64,000 nt of DNA from Cochleicola gelatinilyticus (GTDB lineage Bacteria; Bacteroidota; Bacteroidia; Flavobacteriales; Flavobacteriaceae), in contig NZ_LRXL01000012.1 of the NCBI RefSeq assembly GCF_001637325.1, forward strand, positions 62,001 through 126,000. The letters are read 5' to 3'. Numbering within the stretch: the stretch's first letter is position 1; the number at the start of each line of letters is the position of its first letter. The notes beneath the pieces are model-generated. The model saw nothing but the letters and a program-made list of their open reading frames with translations. It did no database searches and had not been told where the DNA came from. Of the stretch, positions 1,933 to 61,400 are shown one piece after another. Both the position numbers and the translations under genes were made by a program.

Positions 1933-2835
1933 ATGGCGAAAGCAACTAAAAAACAAGCATTAGGCCGCGGTCTTTCTGCTTTACTGAAAGACCCTTCGAA
2001 CGACATACAATCGGTTGCCGATAAAAATGCAGATAAAGTTGTAGGAAGTATCGTGGAGCTTGAATTAACGGCTATTGAAGTAAATCCGTTTCAGCCACGT
2101 ACCAGCTTCAATGAAGAATCGTTACGTGAACTTGCCTCTTCCATTAAAGAATTAGGAGTTATTCAGCCTATCACGGTTCGAAAACTCGATTTTAACAAAT
2201 ACCAATTAGTAAGTGGGGAGCGTCGTTTTCGAGCTTCAAAATTAATAGGTCTTGAAACCGTACCAGCCTATATTCGTATTGCGAACGACCAGGAATCACT
2301 GGAAATGGCATTGGTTGAAAATATTCAACGACAAGATCTTGACCCTATCGAAATTGCTCTTTCATACCAGCGCCTTATTGAAGAAATTGATATTACCCAA
2401 GAAGAATTAAGTGATCGGGTGGGTAAAAACCGTTCAACGATTACTAATTACCTGCGCTTGTTAAAATTGGATCCTATCATTCAAACCGGCATGCGTGACG
2501 GTTTTATCTCAATGGGACACGGTCGGGCACTCATTAATATTGAAGATACCGATGAGCAACTTTCTATTTATGAAAAAGTGCTAGGTAAAAAATTATCGGT
2601 TCGGGATACAGAAGCATTAGTACGGGATATGAAGTCTTCAACACCCACAAAAACGCCTTCAGCAAAAAAAACAATTCCATCCTACGCTAAAGACGCTAAA
2701 AAGGAACTTTCTACCTTACTTGATAGAAAAATCGATGTTAAAATAGGCTCTTCAGGAAAAGGACAATTTGTGGTGCCTTTCGCAGACAAAGAAGACCTTT
2801 CTCGTCTTTTGAAGCTTATTAAAAGTGAAAAATAA
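1933..2835 (+). CDS. parB: Chromosome-partitioning protein ParB (CTP-dependent clamp)
   Basis: A 300-residue ParB/Spo0J protein. The N-terminal segment QALGRGLSALL is the typical ParA-interacting start. The CTP-binding domain shows NPFQPR (51-56) and GERRFR (95-100). A helix-turn-helix follows (near RVGKNRSTITNYLRLLKL), with a C-terminal dimerisation region ending in LLKLIKSEK. It loads at parS sites, slides as a CTP clamp and stimulates ParA. I chose the ATG at 1933; a GTG at 1927 in the same frame would add two residues and lies 2 bases after the parA stop. The end overlaps the next gene by 11 bases. Confidence 0.95.
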   Translation: MAKATKKQALGRGLSALLKDPSNDIQSVADKNADKVVGSIVELELTAIEVNPFQPRTSFNEESLRELASSIKELGVIQPITVRKLDFNKYQLVSGERRFRASKLIGLETVPAYIRIANDQESLEMALVENIQRQDLDPIEIALSYQRLIEEIDITQEELSDRVGKNRSTITNYLRLLKLDPIIQTGMRDGFISMGHGRALINIEDTDEQLSIYEKVLGKKLSVRDTEALVRDMKSSTPTKTPSAKKTIPSYAKDAKKELSTLLDRKIDVKIGSSGKGQFVVPFADKEDLSRLLKLIKSEK

Positions 2836-3406
2836 CCTCTTATATATACTCTTGTTTTTACCGATAGTTTTTCTTTCGGCACAGACAAGCGATACCATTC
2901 CGGTGACTAAAACCGAAACGATTGTAGTTACAAAAGACTCCATTAGTAATTTAGAACCTTACGATCCGCTAGCTCCTTCTCGAGCAGCATTTTATTCTGC
3001 TGTGGTTCCAGGGCTAGGACAAGCCTACAATAAAAAATATTGGAAGATTCCCTTAATTTATGCAGGAATGGCTTCAGGAGTATATTTTTATCTTAGAAAT
3101 GATAAAGACTATAATTTATTTCGAGATGCTTATAAACGAAGACTTGCCGGCTTTAACGACGATGAATTTCAAGGAATTTCTGACCAACGTTTAATTGATG
3201 CCCAAAAAAATGCCCAGAAAAACAAAGACGTAAGCATCATTGTAGCACTTGCTTTTTATATGGTGAATATTATCGATGCCAATGTAGACGCTCATTTACG
3301 GCAATACAATGTGAGTGAAGATATTTCTTTACAACCAAATTTTGAAGTAAATCCAATTAATACACAAGCCAATTACGGACTATCATTAACCTTTAGATTG
3401 AAATGA
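2825..3406 (+). CDS. DUF5683 family membrane protein
   Basis: A 193-residue protein that starts at a GTG inside the end of parB. It has a signal peptide or first membrane helix (residues about 3-20, ending FLSAQ). The core carries AFYSAVVPGLGQAYNKKYWK and then a hydrophobic segment, GMASGVYFYL, typical of DUF5683. A second membrane segment lies around residues 140-155. No enzymatic function is established. Its position between parB and dapB, with overlaps of 11 and 4 bases, shows tight translational coupling. This order is one I recognise from other Flavobacteriaceae. Function unknown; envelope location likely. Confidence 0.8.
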   Translation: MKNNLLYILLFLPIVFLSAQTSDTIPVTKTETIVVTKDSISNLEPYDPLAPSRAAFYSAVVPGLGQAYNKKYWKIPLIYAGMASGVYFYLRNDKDYNLFRDAYKRRLAGFNDDEFQGISDQRLIDAQKNAQKNKDVSIIVALAFYMVNIIDANVDAHLRQYNVSEDISLQPNFEVNPINTQANYGLSLTFRLK

Positions 3407-4110
3407 AAATTGCACTCTTAGGCTACGGAAAAATGGGAAAGACCATTGAAGCGCTTGCCATACAAAAAGGACATACTGTCGTATATAAAAGTACGAGTAC
3501 TACTTCGGAAGGAATTCTTTCTGAAGCCAATGTCGCTATCGAATTTTCATCACCCGACATTGCGATAAAAAACATTGCAAAATCCTTTGAAGCTGGAGTT
3601 CCTGTAGTATGCGGTACGACAGGATGGCTTGATCGCTACGAAGAAATATTAAAATTATGTGAACAGCGTAACGGAAGCTTCCTCTATGCGTCAAACTTCA
3701 GTGTAGGAGTAAATTTGTTTTTCAAACTTAATGCATACGCTGCCTCTCTTTTTGAGGATTGGAAAGAGTATATGCCCGCAATTGAAGAAGTTCATCACAC
3801 ACAAAAAAAAGATGCTCCAAGCGGAACGGCCATTACACTTGCTGAAGGGGTTTTAAAGCACCGCAACGAAACCGATTGGGTTTTAGACAAACAGCAAAAA
3901 GATAAAGTAACCATTAAAGCACAACGTATCGATGATGTAAAAGGTACACATACTGTGACCTATGCTTCAGATATTGATACGGTATCACTAAAGCACGAAG
4001 CACATTCTCGCGACGGATTTGCATTAGGAGCTATACTTGCAGCTGAGTGGCTTCAGAACAAGGAAGGAGTTTTTACTATGGAAGATGTACTGTTCCGAAG
4101 TAATTCTTAA
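3403..4110 (+). CDS. dapB: 4-hydroxy-tetrahydrodipicolinate reductase
   Basis: A 235-residue DapB that reduces 4-hydroxy-tetrahydrodipicolinate with NAD(P)H in the diaminopimelate/lysine pathway. The nucleotide-binding motif GYGKMGKT is at residues 7-14. The catalytic and substrate-binding block reads EEVHHTQKKDAPSGTA, and the C-terminal SRDGFALGAILAAEWL is typical. The protein is slightly shorter than the 270-residue E. coli enzyme, as is normal in Bacteroidota. The start overlaps the previous stop in ATGA. lysA, which ends the same pathway, lies separately near 38.6 kb. Two copies of the octamer CTTCRGAA in opposite orientation lie inside the gene at 3503 and 3519, with more at its end. Confidence 0.95.
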   Translation: MKIALLGYGKMGKTIEALAIQKGHTVVYKSTSTTSEGILSEANVAIEFSSPDIAIKNIAKSFEAGVPVVCGTTGWLDRYEEILKLCEQRNGSFLYASNFSVGVNLFFKLNAYAASLFEDWKEYMPAIEEVHHTQKKDAPSGTAITLAEGVLKHRNETDWVLDKQQKDKVTIKAQRIDDVKGTHTVTYASDIDTVSLKHEAHSRDGFALGAILAAEWLQNKEGVFTMEDVLFRSNS

Positions 4111-4161
4111 AATGAGACCTAACGAAACACGAATATAAAAATAGGGCTTCAGAACTTTTAG

Positions 4162-4169
4162 TACATTTG
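4162..4169 (+). promoter_or_regulatory. Predicted -7 box for lepB
   Basis: TACATTTG matches the Bacteroidota -7 consensus TAnnTTTG. It lies 47 bases before the lepB ATG. I see no clear TTG at the -33 distance, so the call rests on the -7 box alone. It would allow lepB to be transcribed apart from the upstream par-dapB genes. Confidence 0.45.
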
Positions 4170-4216
4170 ATCTCTATATAACAAAAAGTTTTTCTTCGGA
4201 ATAAAAATTATAAAAC

Positions 4217-5782
4217 ATGAGTTGGACAGGTTGGTTAATATTCATTCTTATCATTCAAGTAATCCATTTTTTAGGAACTTGGAAATTGTACATCAAAGCT
4301 GGAAGACAGGCTTGGGAAGCAGCTATTCCCGTGTACAATGCAGTTGTTTTAATGAAAATTATAAATCGCCCTTGGTGGTGGACGATTCTGTTATTTGTTC
4401 CTATTGTAAACCTTATTATGTTCCCGGTAGTGTGGGTAGAAACCATTCGTAGTTTTGGAAAAAACAATGCGACCGATACTTTTCTCGTACTTATTACTTT
4501 CGGATTATATATCTACTATATTAATTATACACAAGACGTTACCTATATAAATGATCGAAGTTTAAAACCCCGTACCAGTACGGGTGAATGGGTAAGCTCT
4601 GTCTTATTTGCAGTTGTTGCCGCGACTATTGTTCATACGTATTTTATTCAACCTTTTACTATTCCTACTTCCTCGTTAGAAAAAACATTACTTGTAGGTG
4701 ATTTTCTCTTTGTAAGTAAATTTCATTATGGAGCGAGAACCCCTATGACACCACTTTCATTTCCAATGGTTCACGATACTATCCCGGTAGTAAAAAGTAA
4801 ATCGTACTTAAAGAAACCACAAATTCCATATTTTAGATTACCAGGGTTTCAGAAAATAAAAAGAAATGATATTGTGGTTTTTAGTTGGCCACCAGATACT
4901 TTAACAAATATTACGAATCCTAATAGCAAGGTTGACATAAAGCCACTCGATAAAAAATCGAACTATGTAAAACGTTGTGTAGGATTGCCTGGTGATTCTC
5001 TTGAAGTTCGGGACGGTTATGTTTATATTAACGGAACACAAACCCAATTGCCAGATCGAGCGAAGGTTCAATTCATGTATTTCGCTCAGTTCTCAAAACC
5101 TTTCAACCCAAGATATGCGTATGAAAGATTCGATATTACAGATATTAACGGCAATCAATCAAGAACAGCTTTTCAATTTCATGCTACTAATGAAGTAGCC
5201 GATCGGTTTAAAAAACTACCTAATTTAGACACTATTTACAGGATTCGACCTGAAAAAGGTCAAGCTACCGGAGGCATGTTTCCACATACTCCAGACCACC
5301 CTTGGAATGTTAATTACTATGGTCCATTATACATACCACAACAAGGCGCTACGGTCGAAATTACTCAAGAAACACTACCCTTATATCGTCGCATTATAGA
5401 AGTCTATGAAGGCAGCGAGCTTGGTATTACTAACGACATCTCCCTAAATGGAAATCAGGTATTATTAAATGGTAGCCCAATTACCGAATATACCTTTAGA
5501 CAAGATTATTACTGGATGATGGGTGACAATCGAAACAATTCTCAAGATGCTCGTTCATGGGGGTTTGTTCCATTTACACATGTAGTTGGAAAACCTGTAT
5601 TTATTTGGATGAGTTGGGACTCTAACGCCCAAGGGTTTGCTAATAAAATTCGATGGGAACGCATGTTTACCACCGTAGGCGGAAGTGGAGAACCGGTATC
5701 TTATTTTAAATACTTCTTAATACTCTTAGTCGGGTGGTTTGCATTCGATTTCTACAGAAAGCGTAAAAAGAAAACAACATAA
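4217..5782 (+). CDS. lepB: Signal peptidase I with N-terminal DUF5684-like membrane domain
   Basis: A 521-residue serine/lysine signal peptidase (S26 family) that removes signal peptides from Sec-exported proteins. The first 115 residues are a hydrophobic domain with AGRQAWEAAIPVYNAVVLMK and RPWWW, which I recognise as DUF5684-like. The peptidase part follows: IPTSSLEKTL with the likely nucleophile S153, the general base K252 in YVKRCVGLPGD, and GDNRNNSQDSR-like box E (GDNRNNSQDARSWG) near residue 435. There is a long insertion between the boxes, and a final membrane helix before KRKKKT. The length is far above the 324 residues of E. coli LepB but normal for this phylum. It probably shares the operon with wbqC, 66 bases downstream. 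Confidence 0.92.
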   Translation: MSWTGWLIFILIIQVIHFLGTWKLYIKAGRQAWEAAIPVYNAVVLMKIINRPWWWTILLFVPIVNLIMFPVVWVETIRSFGKNNATDTFLVLITFGLYIYYINYTQDVTYINDRSLKPRTSTGEWVSSVLFAVVAATIVHTYFIQPFTIPTSSLEKTLLVGDFLFVSKFHYGARTPMTPLSFPMVHDTIPVVKSKSYLKKPQIPYFRLPGFQKIKRNDIVVFSWPPDTLTNITNPNSKVDIKPLDKKSNYVKRCVGLPGDSLEVRDGYVYINGTQTQLPDRAKVQFMYFAQFSKPFNPRYAYERFDITDINGNQSRTAFQFHATNEVADRFKKLPNLDTIYRIRPEKGQATGGMFPHTPDHPWNVNYYGPLYIPQQGATVEITQETLPLYRRIIEVYEGSELGITNDISLNGNQVLLNGSPITEYTFRQDYYWMMGDNRNNSQDARSWGFVPFTHVVGKPVFIWMSWDSNAQGFANKIRWERMFTTVGGSGEPVSYFKYFLILLVGWFAFDFYRKRKKKTT

Positions 5783-54177: not shown

Positions 54178-56010
54178 ATGACAATGATAACAACTGAATT
54201 AATTGATAGTGTTTGTGAAAATCTGGAAGAAAATCTTCCTATAACTAAAACATTGCCGGAAGAAGGAATTCTTCACATCGATAAATTACTACCTTATATT
54301 TGTGTTTATCGATATAAAAAAAAAGACCGATATTTCTCTGGACTATTAAAAACGCAAGGATCCTACCTTATTGTTAAAGACACAGTAGATATTTCAAACC
54401 TACTTACTTGTTTATCGAGTGCTATAGCTTCAAAACTTAATGCTTGTCTTATTTTAGAAATGTGGCCCGTACGAAAAGACCATAAAGCAGATTTTGAAAT
54501 ATCGTGCCCAAAGGGAAAAGCTCCCGCTACAGTGGCAGCTTTTGAAGAAGGAATTAATGAGTTGCGTGTATTGTATCCAGAAGTTTCGGTGACAGTTTCA
54601 GATACGCATAAAAGACATCCTGAACGATTAGAACCGTTAATGAATGTTGATTCCTCTAAAGAAACCGGAAACCTTATTATTGGTTTGGCAGTTCCTACCA
54701 TTTATGAACGCCCGGAAGAACATCATGTATATTCTATTTTTTATAGAAAATTTACCACACAATTATCGGCTATTATTAAACGAGCCGTATATGAGTTTAT
54801 TAGGGTACAAACCTCAAATCCATTCGATCATTATTTGATGCTCGGAAAAACACATTTAGATCGACTTACATTAGAAGCAGATGCTGCCTTGGCCGAAATT
54901 AGTGAGGGCATGTCCTTTCTACTACGAACTACTCCCGTAAACAGTTCTCAAGAATGGGTAAAGTTTAAGGAAAATGATTTTACTAAAACACCATCTTTTA
55001 ATTACCGCCTCATCGCATTAGATCCCGAAAAAGAAAAAAGAAAACTCTTCGGAATACAAATAGATAAAGTGGATGACCCTACAATTTCTTTTATTTTAAG
55101 AGACAAGCGCCTCGAGATTGAAAAGCAACTTACCATGCTAGAGGAAAGGGAAACGGACAGCTTTAGGTTTATTGGAGAGAGTTTGTATGGTAGCATCGAA
55201 GAAAAAGTAATTAAAGGCGCAGATGCTATTCTGAAGACGTATCCTTCGGGAAAAGATCCCGACAATATTGTAAAATTCGATTGCCATGAATTTGCAGAGC
55301 ATGCACAAAAAGAGATAGATTTTTACCAAGAAAAATTTCCCCATCTTAAACTCTCTCTCGAAATAAGAAAAGATGTGGCTGGTATTATGGTGTCAGAATC
55401 TACGCTGCTTATAAGCACCGAATTATCGATGGATTCGGCTCGATGTGATGCTTTAATCCAACATGAGGTTGCGACGCATATTCTTACTTATTGCAACGGA
55501 AAAAGTCAACCTATAAAACAAATGTATACTGGTTTTTCGGGATACGATCAATTGCAAGAAGGGCTCGCAGTACTAGCTGAATATCTAGTTGACGGACTCA
55601 CGGTTAACAGGTTACGACTCCTAGCAGGAAGAGTACTTGCAGCCAATGCAATGGTGGGAGGGGCTACTTTTATTGAAACATTTGAGCTTCTTCGTCGAAC
55701 TCATAATTTCCCTGAAAAAACTGCTTATTATGTCACCATGCGTATTTTTCGAGGTGGCGGACTTACCAAAGATGCCGTGTATCTCGCAGGATTAATGCAG
55801 GTAATGGATTATTTAAAAGATGGAGGAAAACTTGAAACTCTATATACAGGGAAATTTAACACCAATCATGTAGCATTAATAGAAGAACTACTACATAGAA
55901 AGGTTTTAAAACAACCCCAATTACCTCGTTTTCTTGAACGAGACATTGCAAAAGAACGCTTAAAGAAATTACGACACGGAATTTCTATTACAGAACTAAT
56001 AAATAAATAA
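54178..56010 (+). CDS. QEGLA-motif DUF1704 family metallopeptidase (TIGR02421-like)
   Basis: A 610-residue protein of the flavohemoglobin expression-modulating QEGLA family. The zinc motif HEVATH (HExxxH) is at residues 429-434 and QEGLA at 460-464, supplying the likely third zinc ligand E461. DUF1704 is the domain of the human tubulin tyrosine carboxypeptidase MATCAP, so a carboxypeptidase role is reasonable; the bacterial substrate is unknown. The first ATG is 6 bases before another (M1 and M3), and a TATTTTTA box abuts it, so the second may be the true start. An ATP-grasp ligase follows after 3 bases, showing a tight pair. Confidence 0.85.
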   Translation: MTMITTELIDSVCENLEENLPITKTLPEEGILHIDKLLPYICVYRYKKKDRYFSGLLKTQGSYLIVKDTVDISNLLTCLSSAIASKLNACLILEMWPVRKDHKADFEISCPKGKAPATVAAFEEGINELRVLYPEVSVTVSDTHKRHPERLEPLMNVDSSKETGNLIIGLAVPTIYERPEEHHVYSIFYRKFTTQLSAIIKRAVYEFIRVQTSNPFDHYLMLGKTHLDRLTLEADAALAEISEGMSFLLRTTPVNSSQEWVKFKENDFTKTPSFNYRLIALDPEKEKRKLFGIQIDKVDDPTISFILRDKRLEIEKQLTMLEERETDSFRFIGESLYGSIEEKVIKGADAILKTYPSGKDPDNIVKFDCHEFAEHAQKEIDFYQEKFPHLKLSLEIRKDVAGIMVSESTLLISTELSMDSARCDALIQHEVATHILTYCNGKSQPIKQMYTGFSGYDQLQEGLAVLAEYLVDGLTVNRLRLLAGRVLAANAMVGGATFIETFELLRRTHNFPEKTAYYVTMRIFRGGGLTKDAVYLAGLMQVMDYLKDGGKLETLYTGKFNTNHVALIEELLHRKVLKQPQLPRFLERDIAKERLKKLRHGISITELINK

Positions 56011-56013
56011 ACT

Positions 56014-57057
56014 ATGAAAATTGCTTTTATAATAAACGATCACGCTACCGAATCTCCCAACTATACAACTCCTGCGTTGGGTTTTGCAGCCTATAAACGA
56101 GACCATGAAGTCTACTTTATTGGCGTTGGAGAATTAGCATACGCTAGTGATGGTCACCTCTCAGCACGCTGTAAGACCATTAAAGGAAAGAACTTTAAAA
56201 CTCAGGAAACTTTTTTTAAAGCCGTACAAAAAGAAGAACTTACTCGCATTACTTCCGAGGAGCTTGATGTTCTTTTTTTACGGAATGATCCTAGTGATGA
56301 GATCGGAGAACGGGACTGGGCACAAAACGCTGCCTTTATATTCGGAGAGATTGCAACCAGAGATAATGTAATTGTTCTAAATCACCCTAGTAGTTTGGCG
56401 GGAGCAGTAAACAAAATGTATTTTCAGCATTTTCCAGAAATCTTACGCCCAAAGACGATCATTACACGAGATCAAAAAGAAATTAAAGACTTCTTTGCTG
56501 AGCAAAAACAAAAAATGATTTTAAAGCCACTACAAGGTTCGGGAGGGAAAAATGTGTTTATGATGGACAAACAGAACGAACATAATTTATCGCAAACCAT
56601 CGATGCTATTTGCCGTGATGGATATGTTATCGCCCAAGAATATTTACCAAAAGCGAAAGATGGAGATACGCGTTTGTTTTTAATGAATGGGGTGCCATTA
56701 AAATCTAAAGATGGAAAATATGCCATGATGCAGCGGGTAAATGCAAGTGGCGATATTAGAAGTAATATTCATGCAGGAGGAATGCCGCAAAAAGTAAAAA
56801 TGACCGATCAAATTATGGAGCTCGCAGAAATTGTTCGTCCAAAATTAGTACAGGATGGAATGTTTCTCGTAGGAATCGATATTGTAGGTGATAAGCTTAT
56901 GGAAATAAATGTTTTTAGTCCCGGCGGATTAAACGTTATGGGAGAAATGTACGAAACCGATTTTGCGACTGTCGTAATCGAATCGATCGAAAAGAAAGTC
57001 CACTATAATAAAACCTATGAAGATTACCTTTTTAACAGTCGATTGGCTACGTTGTAA
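56014..57057 (+). CDS. ATP-grasp ligase, glutathione synthase-like
   Basis: A 347-residue ATP-grasp protein. Motifs: LNHPSSLAGAVNKMYFQHF, ILKPLQGSGGKNVFMMDK (the ATP-binding loop), VIAQEYLPKAKDGDTRLFLMNG and GIDIVGDKLMEINVFSPGGLNVM. It resembles prokaryotic GshB, but no gamma-glutamylcysteine ligase is seen here and the organism also has BshC, which makes glutathione less likely. It may instead join an amino acid or peptide to another acceptor. It starts 3 bases after the QEGLA gene and is followed by a strong terminator shared with bshC. Confidence 0.85.
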   Translation: MKIAFIINDHATESPNYTTPALGFAAYKRDHEVYFIGVGELAYASDGHLSARCKTIKGKNFKTQETFFKAVQKEELTRITSEELDVLFLRNDPSDEIGERDWAQNAAFIFGEIATRDNVIVLNHPSSLAGAVNKMYFQHFPEILRPKTIITRDQKEIKDFFAEQKQKMILKPLQGSGGKNVFMMDKQNEHNLSQTIDAICRDGYVIAQEYLPKAKDGDTRLFLMNGVPLKSKDGKYAMMQRVNASGDIRSNIHAGGMPQKVKMTDQIMELAEIVRPKLVQDGMFLVGIDIVGDKLMEINVFSPGGLNVMGEMYETDFATVVIESIEKKVHYNKTYEDYLFNSRLATL

Positions 57058-57118: not shown

Positions 57119-58714
57119 CTATAACTCAATTACTGTAAATTGATGGCGCAAAGGATCAAGTTCCTCTTTTAAGGTGTCGAGTAAAACTTCTCCATATTCA
57201 AGATACCATTCCGAAAAATTAATTGTTCGTTCTTGTAGGCTTTGCTTCGGAAACAATTCATCTTGAATTAACGTAACACGCTCTAAAGAATCTGCTAGCT
57301 TGCGTTTCTGGGCTTTCAACAACCTTTTTTCAAGGTGTGACAATCCATTAATTTGCTTTTTCTCTTGTGCTCCTACAGCTCCTACAAAAGAGGCATCGGT
57401 TTTCTTTGCGAGTTCATATAATGCTTCAAATTGTTTCTGAAGGTGTTCTTTTTGTGCTGTAAAATCGATTGCAATGTTTGAAACTTTCTTCGTGTATAAC
57501 GTTCTTAGATCAGACTGTTTCAGGAATAAATCGTTAAGCGATACTTGTAACTGCTTCAGTTTTTCTGAAAATTCTAAAGGCATGAGCAATACCGAATTCC
57601 GAAGTAATAATATAGGAAAAAGAACTTCTACGGCTTCAAAATAATCTTTTAACTGAAACCAATAGGCCAATTCTCCACCGCCACCCACATAGCAAAGATT
57701 GGGTAATATTACCTCTTGATATAATGGACGTAACAAGGCGTTTGGTGAAAATCGTTCCGGATGAGATTCAAGTTCTTTAAGAAGTTCTTCTTCAGAAAAA
57801 GACAAGTTAGTGTCATTAATGTAAAAGATTCCTTCTTTTTCAACAATGCGTTCACGAATCCCTTCTAGCAGGTAAAACAAATTAATTTCACGCGGATGTA
57901 CCTGCTCTGGGTATCCTAATTTTGTTAGCTTATTTGTGGTTTTTGTAATGGTTGTATACGAAATTCCCGACCGTAGTTCTTTTTCAGCAAAAGGAACAAA
58001 CGCCCGTTTTAAATCGGCATCGTCTCCATCGATTACGACAAGACCATAGTCTGAAAACAAAGCATTGGCAAGGTATCGGGTCGCTTCCGTTAAGGTAGCG
58101 TGTTTTGTATAAGCATCTTCAAATAATTGAAGAAGCTGCTTTGCATGGTGACTATTTCCTAAAGTTTTCTTTAAAGCTTTATGTACTTCTTCAAGTCCTT
58201 CTGTAGAAAGTGCGCCCACAGCGCCCCCCGAAGCATGATCCCACTGCACTTTTTTTCCGAAGAGATTAAAATAATTAATTTCTTCAAAATCGTGGTCTTC
58301 TGTTGCCATCCAATACACAGGCACAAAATGATTGTTGGAATGTGTCTTATTAAGTTTCTCTGATAAATTGATCACCGAAAAAATCTTGTACAGAAAATAC
58401 AAAGGCCCAGTAAACATATTTAATTGGTGCCCTGTAGTAATGGTAAACGTAGTTGCTTCGGAAAGTGAATCGATATTAATTTGAGTGGCTTGAGAAACAT
58501 TTATCCCTTTATACTGATTGGTAAGTGCTGCGACTAATGTTTTTCTTTGAACAGAACTAAACGTCTTTTGCTTTTCTTGAAGCTGTGGTTCAAAATTTTC
58601 TAACTTCGGAAACCGATGGTAAAAAGATTGTAACTCCTCTTTTTCTGCAAGATAGTCACAGATTAATTGCGAGAAATATTGGGTTTCGGAATACGGAAGG
58701 TAATGTACCGGCAT
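57119..58714 (-). CDS. bshC: Bacillithiol biosynthesis cysteine-adding enzyme BshC
   Basis: A 531-residue BshC. It begins MPVHYLPYSETQYFSQLI with the family-specific TTGHQLNMFTGPLYFLYKIFSVINLSEKL and YWMATEDHDFEEINYF. A long coiled-coil lies around residues 380-490. BshC joins cysteine to glucosaminyl-malate to finish bacillithiol, the low-molecular-weight thiol of many Bacteroidota and Firmicutes. bshA and bshB are not in the window. It converges with the ligase gene. Confidence 0.95.
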   Translation of the reverse strand: MPVHYLPYSETQYFSQLICDYLAEKEELQSFYHRFPKLENFEPQLQEKQKTFSSVQRKTLVAALTNQYKGINVSQATQINIDSLSEATTFTITTGHQLNMFTGPLYFLYKIFSVINLSEKLNKTHSNNHFVPVYWMATEDHDFEEINYFNLFGKKVQWDHASGGAVGALSTEGLEEVHKALKKTLGNSHHAKQLLQLFEDAYTKHATLTEATRYLANALFSDYGLVVIDGDDADLKRAFVPFAEKELRSGISYTTITKTTNKLTKLGYPEQVHPREINLFYLLEGIRERIVEKEGIFYINDTNLSFSEEELLKELESHPERFSPNALLRPLYQEVILPNLCYVGGGGELAYWFQLKDYFEAVEVLFPILLLRNSVLLMPLEFSEKLKQLQVSLNDLFLKQSDLRTLYTKKVSNIAIDFTAQKEHLQKQFEALYELAKKTDASFVGAVGAQEKKQINGLSHLEKRLLKAQKRKLADSLERVTLIQDELFPKQSLQERTINFSEWYLEYGEVLLDTLKEELDPLRHQFTVIEL

Positions 58715-58910: not shown

Positions 58911-61400
58911 ATGACCCGCATTCTTTCGATAGCCCTTTTGCTTATTTCTACTGTCCTTTCCGCACAGGTACAATCTCCCGCCGAATTTTTGGGGTATGAG
59001 ATGGGAACACAGTTTACGCGCCATGCCGATGTTGTTTCTTATTTCGAACATGTTGCTGAAAATAGTGCGATGGTCACATTCGATACCTACGGAAAAACCA
59101 ACGAGCGACGCCCACTTACCTACGCGATTATTTCTTCTGAAGGCAATATTTCTACTATTAAAACCCTGCGTACCAATCACCTAACAAATGCCGGAATACA
59201 AAAAGGAACGGCAACTTCAAACACTGCGATTGTTTGGATGAGCTACAACGTACATGGAAATGAAGCTTCCAGTACCGAAGCAGCGATGAATACGATATAC
59301 AAACTAATTACCGAAAAGAAAGATTATTTACAAAACACCGTAGTGCTCATAGATCCTTGTGTAAATCCCGATGGCCGTGATCGCTATGTAAACTGGTACA
59401 ATCAGGTAAAATCAACTCCTTATAACAAACTACAAGATGCTGCAGAACACCACGAACCTTGGCCCGGAGGACGTCCCAACCATTATCTCTTCGATTTAAA
59501 CCGCGATTGGGCATGGGCGACGCAGGTTGAAAGTCAGCAGCGTTTAAAAATTTACAATCAATGGATGCCACATGTGCATGTCGATTTTCATGAACAAGGC
59601 ATTAACAATCCGTATTATTTTGCACCTGCTGCCGAACCTTTCCATGAGATCATAACCGATTTTCAACGGGACTTTCAAACAGAGATTGGGAAAAACCACG
59701 CTCGATACTTCGATAAGGAAGGTTGGTTGTTCTTTACGCGAGAAAGTTTCGACCTATTATATCCTAGTTATGGAGACACCTACCCCATGTTCATGGGTGC
59801 CATAGGAATGACATACGAGCAAGCAGGTCACGGACGTGCTGGTTTAGGCATTGATACCGATGAAGGATACGAACTTACCTTAGTTGATCGTGTGGCGCAT
59901 CACACAACTACTGGATTATCGACAATTGAAGTTGCTTCAAAAAACGCAAACAAACTTGTTACAGAGTTTAAAAATTATTTTTCGAAAACCAATTTTACAT
60001 ACAAAAGCTACGTTTTAAAAGGGCATCCCGATAAATTAAAAGCACTTACCACTCTTTTAGATCGACATGAGATTGTCTATGGATATACGAACAGTGGCAC
60101 CGTAAATGGGTATAATTATACTACGGCGACCAAAAGTTCTATGGATGCTACCGGGGCACTTGTTGTAAGTACCAACCAGCCAAAAGGAAACATGGTAAAA
60201 GTACTGTTTGAACCAGATGCTAAACTAAGTGATCCTTTAACCTACGATATTACGGCGTGGAGCATTCCGCATGCCTATGGATTAGAAGCCTTAGCAAGTA
60301 CGAGTTTAATAAATGCTACAGCGACTACACCTAACAAATTTAAGAATACAAGTGCAGCTACTCCTTCTGCGGCAGGGTATATCGCAGATTGGAACAGCGT
60401 ATACGATGCGGCCTTTCTTTCTGAATTACTAAAACAGGATATTCGAGTTCGGTTTTCTGAAAAAGAACTTCAGTTTAATGGAAAAACATTTAATCGGGGT
60501 AGTTTAATTATTACAAAAAGTGACAATCGAACCAATAACGAGTTTGATCAAAAAGTAATTAAAATAGCAAAGAAACACCAACGAAACTTATATGCTGCCA
60601 CAACAAGCTTTAGTGATAATGGAACCGATTTTGGTTCTCCCGATCTCAAATTAATCAACACACCACGTGTCGCCATGTTAAAAGGAAAGGGAGTGTCCTC
60701 ACTAAGCTATGGCACCTTATGGCACTTTTTTGAAACCCAGTTACAATATCCAATAACTTCTGTAGACACCGATTATTTTGATTCGGTTTCATTAAATACA
60801 TTCGACATTCTCGTCCTCCCCGATGGATGGTACTCTAGTGTTATTAATGAAGAAAGACTAAAAGAGATCACAGCTTGGGTTCGACGTGGAGGAAAAATAA
60901 TTTCATTGGGAAATGCGGTACGCTTTTTTGAAGGTAAAGAAGGTTTTGATCTAACAGAAAACAAACCCGATACTACCGAAACGAATGAAGCTTCGAAAGC
61001 AGAAAAATTAATTCCCTACGATCAACGCGAACGAAACGGAGTAACCGACCTTATAACAGGAAGTATTTACAAAATTAAGTTAGACCCTTCGCACCCCATG
61101 GCATTTGGTTATGGTGATTCTTATTTTAGTTTAAAACTTGGTAGTGATTCGTATCAGTTCTTAGAAAATGGCTACAATGTAGGGTATATACAAGATGAGC
61201 CTATCTCCGTTTCAGGTTTCTCTGGAAAGAATGCAAAAGCAAAGCTTAAAAATTCTATGGTATTTGGAGAAGCAAGAATGGGACGTGGGAGTATGATCTA
61301 TATAGTAGACGATGTGTTATTTCGTTCTTTTTGGGAAAACGGAAAATTACTCTTTGTAAATAGTTTGTTCTTTGTAAATCCAAATCGCTTTCGCGAGTAA
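58911..61400 (+). CDS. M14 family zinc carboxypeptidase, exported
   Basis: An 829-residue exported peptidase. Signal peptide residues 1-19 (ending TVLSAQ). The zinc ligands are H115 and E118 in SYNVHGNEASSTEA, with the third ligand in the HVDFHEQG segment near residue 225. DPCVNPDGRDRYVNWYNQ is the standard M14 NPDG arginine region. The C-terminal half (about 500-829) has a second, non-catalytic region with VLPDGWYSSVI and GRGSMIYIVDDVLF. There is no T9SS signal, so a periplasmic or outer-membrane location is more likely than secretion. It probably trims peptides. Confidence 0.88.
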   Translation: MTRILSIALLLISTVLSAQVQSPAEFLGYEMGTQFTRHADVVSYFEHVAENSAMVTFDTYGKTNERRPLTYAIISSEGNISTIKTLRTNHLTNAGIQKGTATSNTAIVWMSYNVHGNEASSTEAAMNTIYKLITEKKDYLQNTVVLIDPCVNPDGRDRYVNWYNQVKSTPYNKLQDAAEHHEPWPGGRPNHYLFDLNRDWAWATQVESQQRLKIYNQWMPHVHVDFHEQGINNPYYFAPAAEPFHEIITDFQRDFQTEIGKNHARYFDKEGWLFFTRESFDLLYPSYGDTYPMFMGAIGMTYEQAGHGRAGLGIDTDEGYELTLVDRVAHHTTTGLSTIEVASKNANKLVTEFKNYFSKTNFTYKSYVLKGHPDKLKALTTLLDRHEIVYGYTNSGTVNGYNYTTATKSSMDATGALVVSTNQPKGNMVKVLFEPDAKLSDPLTYDITAWSIPHAYGLEALASTSLINATATTPNKFKNTSAATPSAAGYIADWNSVYDAAFLSELLKQDIRVRFSEKELQFNGKTFNRGSLIITKSDNRTNNEFDQKVIKIAKKHQRNLYAATTSFSDNGTDFGSPDLKLINTPRVAMLKGKGVSSLSYGTLWHFFETQLQYPITSVDTDYFDSVSLNTFDILVLPDGWYSSVINEERLKEITAWVRRGGKIISLGNAVRFFEGKEGFDLTENKPDTTETNEASKAEKLIPYDQRERNGVTDLITGSIYKIKLDPSHPMAFGYGDSYFSLKLGSDSYQFLENGYNVGYIQDEPISVSGFSGKNAKAKLKNSMVFGEARMGRGSMIYIVDDVLFRSFWENGKLLFVNSLFFVNPNRFRE

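Follow-up and report, generated by a model that had tools for sequence, protein, structure and literature searches.

A DUF1704/MATCAP-family peptidase gene and a GshB-like ATP-grasp ligase gene of Cochleicola gelatinilyticus belong to a conserved bacterial cassette with an N-formylglutamate amidohydrolase-like partner

That ATP-grasp ligases are encoded together with peptidases is the general theme of amidoligase-peptidase gene neighbourhoods, which were reportedly surveyed by Iyer and collaborators in 2009. In bacteria, RimK and RimB are a polyglutamate ligase and a protease that act on ribosomal protein S6. In eukaryotes, the tubulin carboxypeptidases MATCAP1 and MATCAP2 (KIAA0895L and KIAA0895, or TMCP1 and TMCP2) belong to family PF08014, and the human enzymes remove C-terminal tyrosine and glutamate and shorten polyglutamate chains, according to an excerpt of PMC10499314. 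Here we explore a stretch of 64,000 nucleotides of the flavobacterium Cochleicola gelatinilyticus (contig NZ_LRXL01000012.1, positions 62,001 to 126,000; hereafter the window), in which a gene for a long DUF1704 protein (DUF1704L) of the MATCAP family is followed by a gene for a GshB-like ATP-grasp ligase (ligase B). Both belong, together with an N-formylglutamate amidohydrolase (FGAH)-type zinc enzyme, to a conserved cassette which is a variant of the known ligase and peptidase theme, and which is not described as a unit in the open-licence literature searched for DUF1704, QEGLA, and ATP-grasp plus FGAH themes.

The original prediction described a two-gene pair, 3 bases apart, made of a DUF1704 protein with HExxxH and QEGLA motifs and a GshB-like ATP-grasp ligase. 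Open reading frame (ORF) calls, Pfam and NCBIfam agree with this, and both genes lie on the same strand (Table 1). As a complete unit the pair stands only in part: linkage of ligase and DUF1704 holds, but the unit comprises three activities, FGAH being adjacent, fused or degenerate. Neighbourhood maps show a gene for an FGAH-type zinc enzyme adjoining DUF1704 in most loci. With A and B denoting the two ligase clades described below, ligase A, FGAH, a long DUF1704 protein and ligase B form a single run in genomes G103 and G118, with a rhodanese gene interposed in G103; G122, G002 and G171 show FGAH, long DUF1704 and ligase B, and the map of G053 lacks FGAH and has an AstE-like gene along with long DUF1704 and ligase B. 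FGAH and DUF1704 are fused in G045 (667 amino acids), Photobacterium sp. DA100 (662) and Vibrio sp. HDW18 (663); an A-type ligase precedes the Photobacterium fusion and no ligase was called near that of Vibrio.

Judged from its sequence, the N-terminus of the window peptidase is a degenerate ("dead") copy of FGAH. Aligned by hhalign, the N-terminal domains of the long DUF1704 proteins match FGAH at 95.6% (E 1.2e-8, 206 columns), the value in a broader set being 90.3% (E 1.5e-6, 148 columns), as compared with 0.0-0.2% for six decoy profiles and 0.3% for a ligase control. Motifs HxGH, [DE]xNR and DxHS are present in 35/37, 37/37 and 37/37 FGAH rows versus 0/15, 1/15 and 0/15 N-terminal domains, and the window copy has none of these three metal-site-type motifs. 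The described counterpart is the HutG-type N-formylglutamate amidohydrolase (FGase, PF05013), which the cassettes resemble by a neighbour gene, a fused domain or, in the window, a degenerate copy; they differ in that PF05013 scores of cassette FGAH proteins and domains are weak to moderate (45-81 bits) and in that the window copy lacks its metal-site-type motifs.

Co-occurrence and adjacency of the two families, which the original prediction proposed as a check, are not local to this genome. In a sample of 198 genomes from the phylum, DUF1704 was found in 12, a match to the ligase model (E <= 1e-60) likewise in 12, and both in 11; in each of these 11 the two families come within 2.4 kb of each other at their closest matched stretches, and the ligases score at least 396 bits. 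The exceptions are G186, which has DUF1704 alone, and G194, which has nothing but a weak match of 214.8 bits to the ligase. The corresponding Fisher p of 3e-17 (ligase counted at >= 390 bits) is overstated, because the genomes are related. A scan of genome contigs confirmed at least 573 relatives, the best 80 of which were kept, a narrow sample of Flavobacteriaceae with one locus listed only as Bacteroidia. Ligase and FGAH are found near a short DUF1704 gene in 71 of these 80 loci and neither in eight, while one locus, cut by the contig end, has FGAH only.

Outside Bacteroidota the evidence consists of plasmid records and papers. The window peptidase matches 116 plasmid records, mostly rhizobial, of which 113 cover 80% or more of the protein, and the window ligase matches 123 (E <= 1e-40). 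Among the matches listed (60 and 40, respectively) 15 records are common to both, with the two genes at most 20 bases apart and on one strand in 15/15. In all six rhizobial-type plasmid loci with FGAH and DUF1704L both annotated intact (L132, L133, L139, L142, L143 and L144), FGAH precedes DUF1704L with a 4-base overlap and the ligase comes next. In Sinorhizobium medicae ml29 (L131), FGAH and DUF1704L are separated by two genes for group II intron reverse transcriptases (2138-5296). As for the papers, we take COG3930 to be the DUF1704 family. An excerpt of PMC10308900 reports adjacent Photobacterium damselae genes RS17020 (GshB) and RS17025 (QEGLA protein) as 38.4- and 27.5-fold up at 1% NaCl, and an excerpt of PMC3091676 lists two genes of Vibrio vulnificus as clade-2-specific, namely VV2_1203 (COG3930) and VV2_1204 (glutathione synthetase). 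The cassette occurs in Bacteroidota, Rhizobiales and Vibrionaceae and is shared by marine, soil and Vibrio-like bacteria.

The same genome carries a second cassette on contig C44, where a symporter is accompanied by a PRK12458-subfamily ligase, a gamma-glutamylcyclotransferase-like membrane protein, an FGAH-like protein and a DUF1704 protein of 387 amino acids, which makes the window one of two cassette versions in this genome; as far as found, true FGAH is encoded only there. A phylogeny of 38 ligases separates a B clade of 19 rows (support 100/99), which holds the window ligase, its relatives in Bacteroidota and 12 plasmid ligases (all but that of Photobacterium), from an A clade of 18 rows (89/97), with the Flavobacteriaceae A ligases, G045 and Photobacterium; a distant GshB-like outlier is placed beside A. 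In a phylogeny of 49 DUF1704 domains, 17 rows form a long clade (100/100), to which the sequences of the window and of rhizobial plasmids belong, and 27 rows form a short clade (100/100). B ligases pair with long DUF1704 proteins, and the partner of an A ligase is a short or a fused one, except in G103 and G118, where both ligases accompany one long DUF1704 protein.

The predicted relation of DUF1704 to MATCAP was supported. A profile of 13 DUF1704 domains retrieves MATCAP chains 7z5g (E 1.6e-16) and 7z6s (E 3.2e-15), and the AlphaFold model of the window peptidase aligns to 7z6s with Z 23.9 and 3.0 A over 290 residues, the next row being at 16.6, in VIA-align, which re-aligns candidates taken from Foldseek. 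Foldseek itself returned nothing at E <= 0.001 with this model, MATCAP being outside its 50 listed rows, and a single-sequence search of solved structures gave no relative and two chance rows; among the sequence searches, only the one with the family profile reached MATCAP. The HExxxH motif is kept in 49/49 rows of the DUF1704 tree, and in the profile alignment QEGLA corresponds to the EEG motif of MATCAP, the role of which is given in an excerpt of PMC10499314. NCBIfam family TIGR02421 ("QEGLA") scores the window peptidase at 317.9, under its cut-off of 338.65; one DUF1704L from a plasmid (354.5) and the fusion protein of Photobacterium (459.9) exceed this cut-off, and the short protein of locus L034 (296.7) does not. 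Bacterial and eukaryotic members have PF08014, HExxxH with an EG motif, and a fold in common, but identity is only about 19-20%, and the bacterial genes occur in linkage with those for an ATP-grasp ligase and for FGAH, without tubulin. By analogy with its family, the DUF1704 protein is probably a zinc carboxypeptidase, with zinc binding and C-terminal clipping as putative properties.

Table 1. Coordinates of the peptidase and ligase genes, their domains and motifs in the window
Feature	Position	Strand	Evidence
DUF1704L, 610 amino acids: degenerate FGAH-like N-terminal domain and DUF1704/MATCAP-family metallopeptidase domain	54178..56010	+	ORF, Pfam, NCBIfam, MATCAP profile and fold match
Degenerate FGAH-like domain, N-terminal ~234-235 residues	54178..54879	+	hhalign, motif counts
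DUF1704/MATCAP catalytic domain, residues 262-598	54961..55971	+	PF08014, 303.3 bits (cut-off 27)
HEVATH (HExxxH), putative zinc-ligand/catalytic motif, residues 429-434	55462..55479	+	Motif search; H, E, H invariant in alignments A1, A2
QEGLA, presumed third zinc ligand Glu, residues 460-464	55555..55569	+	Motif search; Q, E, G invariant in A1, A2
Ligase B, 347 amino acids, GshB-like ATP-grasp, PRK12458 subfamily	56014..57057	+	Pfam, NCBIfam, best solved relative 1gsa
ATP-grasp domain GSH-S_ATP, residues 133-309	56410..56940	+	Pfam; catalytic-type residues R220, R241, R249, D289, E297, N299

We give an even chance to the reading that the two genes of the window represent version B of a cytoplasmic cassette with three activities, whose enzymes assemble and shorten a small acidic peptide or an N-acyl/gamma-glutamyl conjugate. 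Going by the enzyme families, the ligase would convert a carboxylate into an acyl phosphate and couple this to an amine; the product would be a short acidic peptide or a conjugate of the gamma-glutamyl/N-acyl-glutamyl type. The DUF1704 protein, with zinc held by HExxxH and the glutamate of QEGLA, would take off the C-terminal residue, while the target of FGAH would be an N-acyl or amide bond beside an acidic residue; in this way the compound would be trimmed and recycled. The pseudo-FGAH domain may be a docking or regulatory partner for the true FGAH of the C44 cassette. FGAH enzymes act on small molecules, and the family name of FGAH as well as the closeness of the ligase to the RimK fold suggest glutamate-type small substrates. 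If this reading is correct, genes now annotated as "glutathione synthase" and "flavohemoglobin expression-modulating QEGLA motif protein" in Bacteroidota, Rhizobiales and Vibrionaceae would form one peptide pathway (the origin of the latter name was not found in the open-licence literature), glutathione capacity deduced from PRK12458 hits would be wrong in organisms without gamma-glutamylcysteine ligase (GshA), and bacterial MATCAP relatives would obtain their first cellular context and a direct route to their substrate. A further extension, which we consider unlikely, is that ligases A and B, true and pseudo amidohydrolase and the MATCAP-type carboxypeptidase would constitute a dedicated peptide-editing pathway for a small acidic peptide or peptide tag with a use in adaptation to stress or salinity, in which case the eukaryotic tubulin carboxypeptidases would derive from an enzyme of small-peptide metabolism and not from one of protein processing.

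Various observations count against the three-activity reading. The N-terminal domain of the window protein alone has no Pfam match, FGase included, at E <= 1, and its AlphaFold model is of low confidence. The Photobacterium and Vibrio fusions group weakly with the long DUF1704 clade (90/32), yet the Photobacterium ligase is of the A clade, which makes the match between the ligase and DUF1704 trees incomplete; the G045 fusion is found on the short side (94/55), and with such weak support the placement of the fusions is unsettled. Three Ensifer plasmids (L136, L137 and L138) carry a B-type ligase with no DUF1704 within 8 kb. Conversely, eight loci show a symporter and DUF1704 without ligase or FGAH, and a search of these eight whole genomes with the ligase model (E <= 1e-40) and one FGAH query (E <= 1e-10) found nothing in 8/8; the same search was positive in 4/4 comparison genomes, a divergent FGAH could escape it, and completeness of the eight is not given. 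The peptidase therefore has a role apart from the ligase. Neighbouring genes help little. An SDF (dicarboxylate/glutamate-type) symporter and aroC precede many A cassettes, but among 30 symporter loci in the family aroC is adjacent in 24 and a piece of the cassette (1.5 kb flanks) in 11, hence the symporter was rejected as a partner and regarded as a synteny landmark. Rhodanese (16/80 loci) and a TerB-like ORF were rejected likewise, as both persist at locus L182, where no cassette gene was called; all three neighbours say little because they are kept where the cassette is absent. Gamma-glutamylcyclotransferase was dismissed as a substrate clue, being found at the A locus of this genome only, with 0/80 and 0/14 elsewhere, and the AstE-like gene, another amino-acid-type neighbour that could hint at the substrate, is likewise rare, seen only at L043.

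The persistence of DUF1704 on its own is what a salvage route would lead one to expect. There, DUF1704 and FGAH would degrade a scavenged acidic or N-acylated peptide end by end, the peptidase being the core and the ligase an accessory that recaptures or detoxifies an intermediate. Locus L185 repeats the DUF1704-only picture over 13 kb, rows with only DUF1704 are nested by cassette rows in the tree (L047 with L044, 100/100; L077 with L064, 100/99), and stand-alone DUF1704 is found in Pseudoalteromonas and Aeromonas loci, with no ligase near, and in G186. The glutamate-type symporter before many A cassettes would fit as well, if it were not a landmark. From the nesting, ligase and FGAH were probably lost together more than once. 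Their joint absence from the eight genomes, however, indicates that the ligase goes with a hydrolase and is not a loose accessory. In addition, the Ensifer plasmids keep the ligase with no hydrolases nearby. On balance we regard salvage as rather unlikely.

In the original prediction the pair was said to mirror, formally, a remove-and-add amino-acid cycle like that of MATCAP and tubulin tyrosine ligase (TTL), with a peptide, a protein tail or a small molecule as the possible acceptor. Applied to a protein tail, the ligase would add and DUF1704 remove C-terminal amino acids, as in TTL/MATCAP or RimK/RimB. MATCAP is indeed the nearest solved relative of the peptidase, its human forms trimming such tails as described above, and RimK is the second fold match of the ligase model (Z 24-25). 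The resemblance to TTL was not upheld: no TTL family is among the Pfam matches of ligase B at E <= 0.001, and the 50 listed fold rows are led by GshB and then RimK with TTL not among them, which proves nothing by itself. With GshB nearest, RimK next and no TTL Pfam match, the ligase is no mirror of TTL at the family level. The likeness to RimK/RimB, a bacterial ATP-grasp ligase beside a hydrolase, is offset by a different ligase subfamily and an unrelated protease. Furthermore, no conserved small neighbour with an acidic tail was noticed, in maps that were not systematically searched for a substrate protein, and the TerB-like ORF of about 111 residues shows no acidic tail shared among the rows compared and stays at the cassette-less L182. 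FGAH, moreover, would act on small molecules. What remains of the cycle is a conserved ligase and peptidase pair that is not obligatory, given DUF1704 without ligase in the eight genomes and some gammaproteobacterial loci. A protein-tail cycle appears distinctly unlikely to us. Overall, the observation underlying the original prediction is confirmed and its interpretation partly supported. Separately, this genome has another cluster of ligases and hydrolases on contig C25 (L008, 4833-8095), which looks like RimK-RimB-RimK-AstE: two RimK-like ligases flank a small protease of RimB type and are followed in the same run by an AstE-like hydrolase, RimB and AstE being named by eye.

Current annotation amounts to ordinary glutathione synthesis beside an unrelated protease, which the original prediction had already doubted. 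Plasmid ligases are annotated "glutathione synthase/synthetase", and PRK12458 is taken as GshB in a review (PMC3462692, excerpt). Ligase B matches Pfam GSH-S_ATP and GSH-S_N and passes NF009110/PRK12458 "glutathione synthetase" (434.1 versus a cut-off of 408); its best solved relative is E. coli GshB 1gsa (E 7e-37; Z 31.4 in the model alignment), with the same pattern of arginines and metal ligands. R220, R241, R249, D289, E297 and N299 are invariant in a 20-row ligase alignment (A3), and the corresponding motifs are kept in the aligned rows compared. A-type ligases even pass one glutathione-synthase equivalog (283.6 and 291.7 versus 272). Ligase B, however, fails both equivalogs, NF003573 and TIGR01380 (220.7 versus 272; 204.1 versus 299.05), as do the three plasmid ligases tested; SPTG of the GshB-like row, an acceptor-side motif, is [ST]PG[GA] in the cassette ligases compared and SPGG in ligase B, and the N-terminal substrate-side motif differs from that of GshB. 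This N-terminal segment also distinguishes A ligases from B ligases. The GshA families PF04262 and PF04107 have 0 matches in this genome, rated 99.98% complete, while in control searches they were found in 2 and 5 of 14 genomes, respectively. Because no GshA homologue was found, glutathione is very probably not the product of the ligases in this genome, barring an uptake of gamma-Glu-Cys from outside. Rhizobiales and Vibrionaceae make and use glutathione, and there the argument is one of subfamily and context only. Together with the conserved linkage to two hydrolases across several phyla, this makes a plain glutathione role very unlikely.

The convergent bshC gene (57119-58714; NCBIfam 474.6 versus a cut-off of 265.8), which the original prediction correctly placed next to the pair and used as an argument, might be taken to indicate a bacillithiol-linked role, but mapped neighbourhoods of relatives carry other genes, no bshC-like pattern being noticed in maps that were not searched specifically for bshC linkage, and the cassette is found in the glutathione-using Rhizobiales and Vibrionaceae, so that such a role is hardly credible. 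Upstream of the pair lies guaA, on the opposite strand. Adjoining bshC is a gene for an 829-residue protein with an M14 zinc-carboxypeptidase domain (58911-61400), with no NCBIfam match at E <= 0.001.

A few features of individual loci may be mentioned. The gamma-glutamylcyclotransferase-like protein of C44 (L007, 9486-10682), encoded between ligase A and FGAH, combines an N-terminal membrane segment, seen by eye, with a gamma-glutamylcyclotransferase/AIG2-like domain. The TerB-like ORF stands between the A ligase or rhodanese gene and FGAH in Winogradskyella and others (L040, 7612-7938; L105, 6812-7147), its Pfam match in L040 being weak (E 0.008). On the Ensifer plasmid of L138 the ligase gene is surrounded by stress-type genes, which include CsbD, DUF2934, a sigma factor and a "general stress protein". 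Finally, a secreted-looking family with a signal-like start and AQVGI(G/N)TT repeats is encoded immediately upstream of ligase A in various genera (L095, L097, L098, L101, L102, L104 and L116-L119) as well as at L007, 7447-8241.

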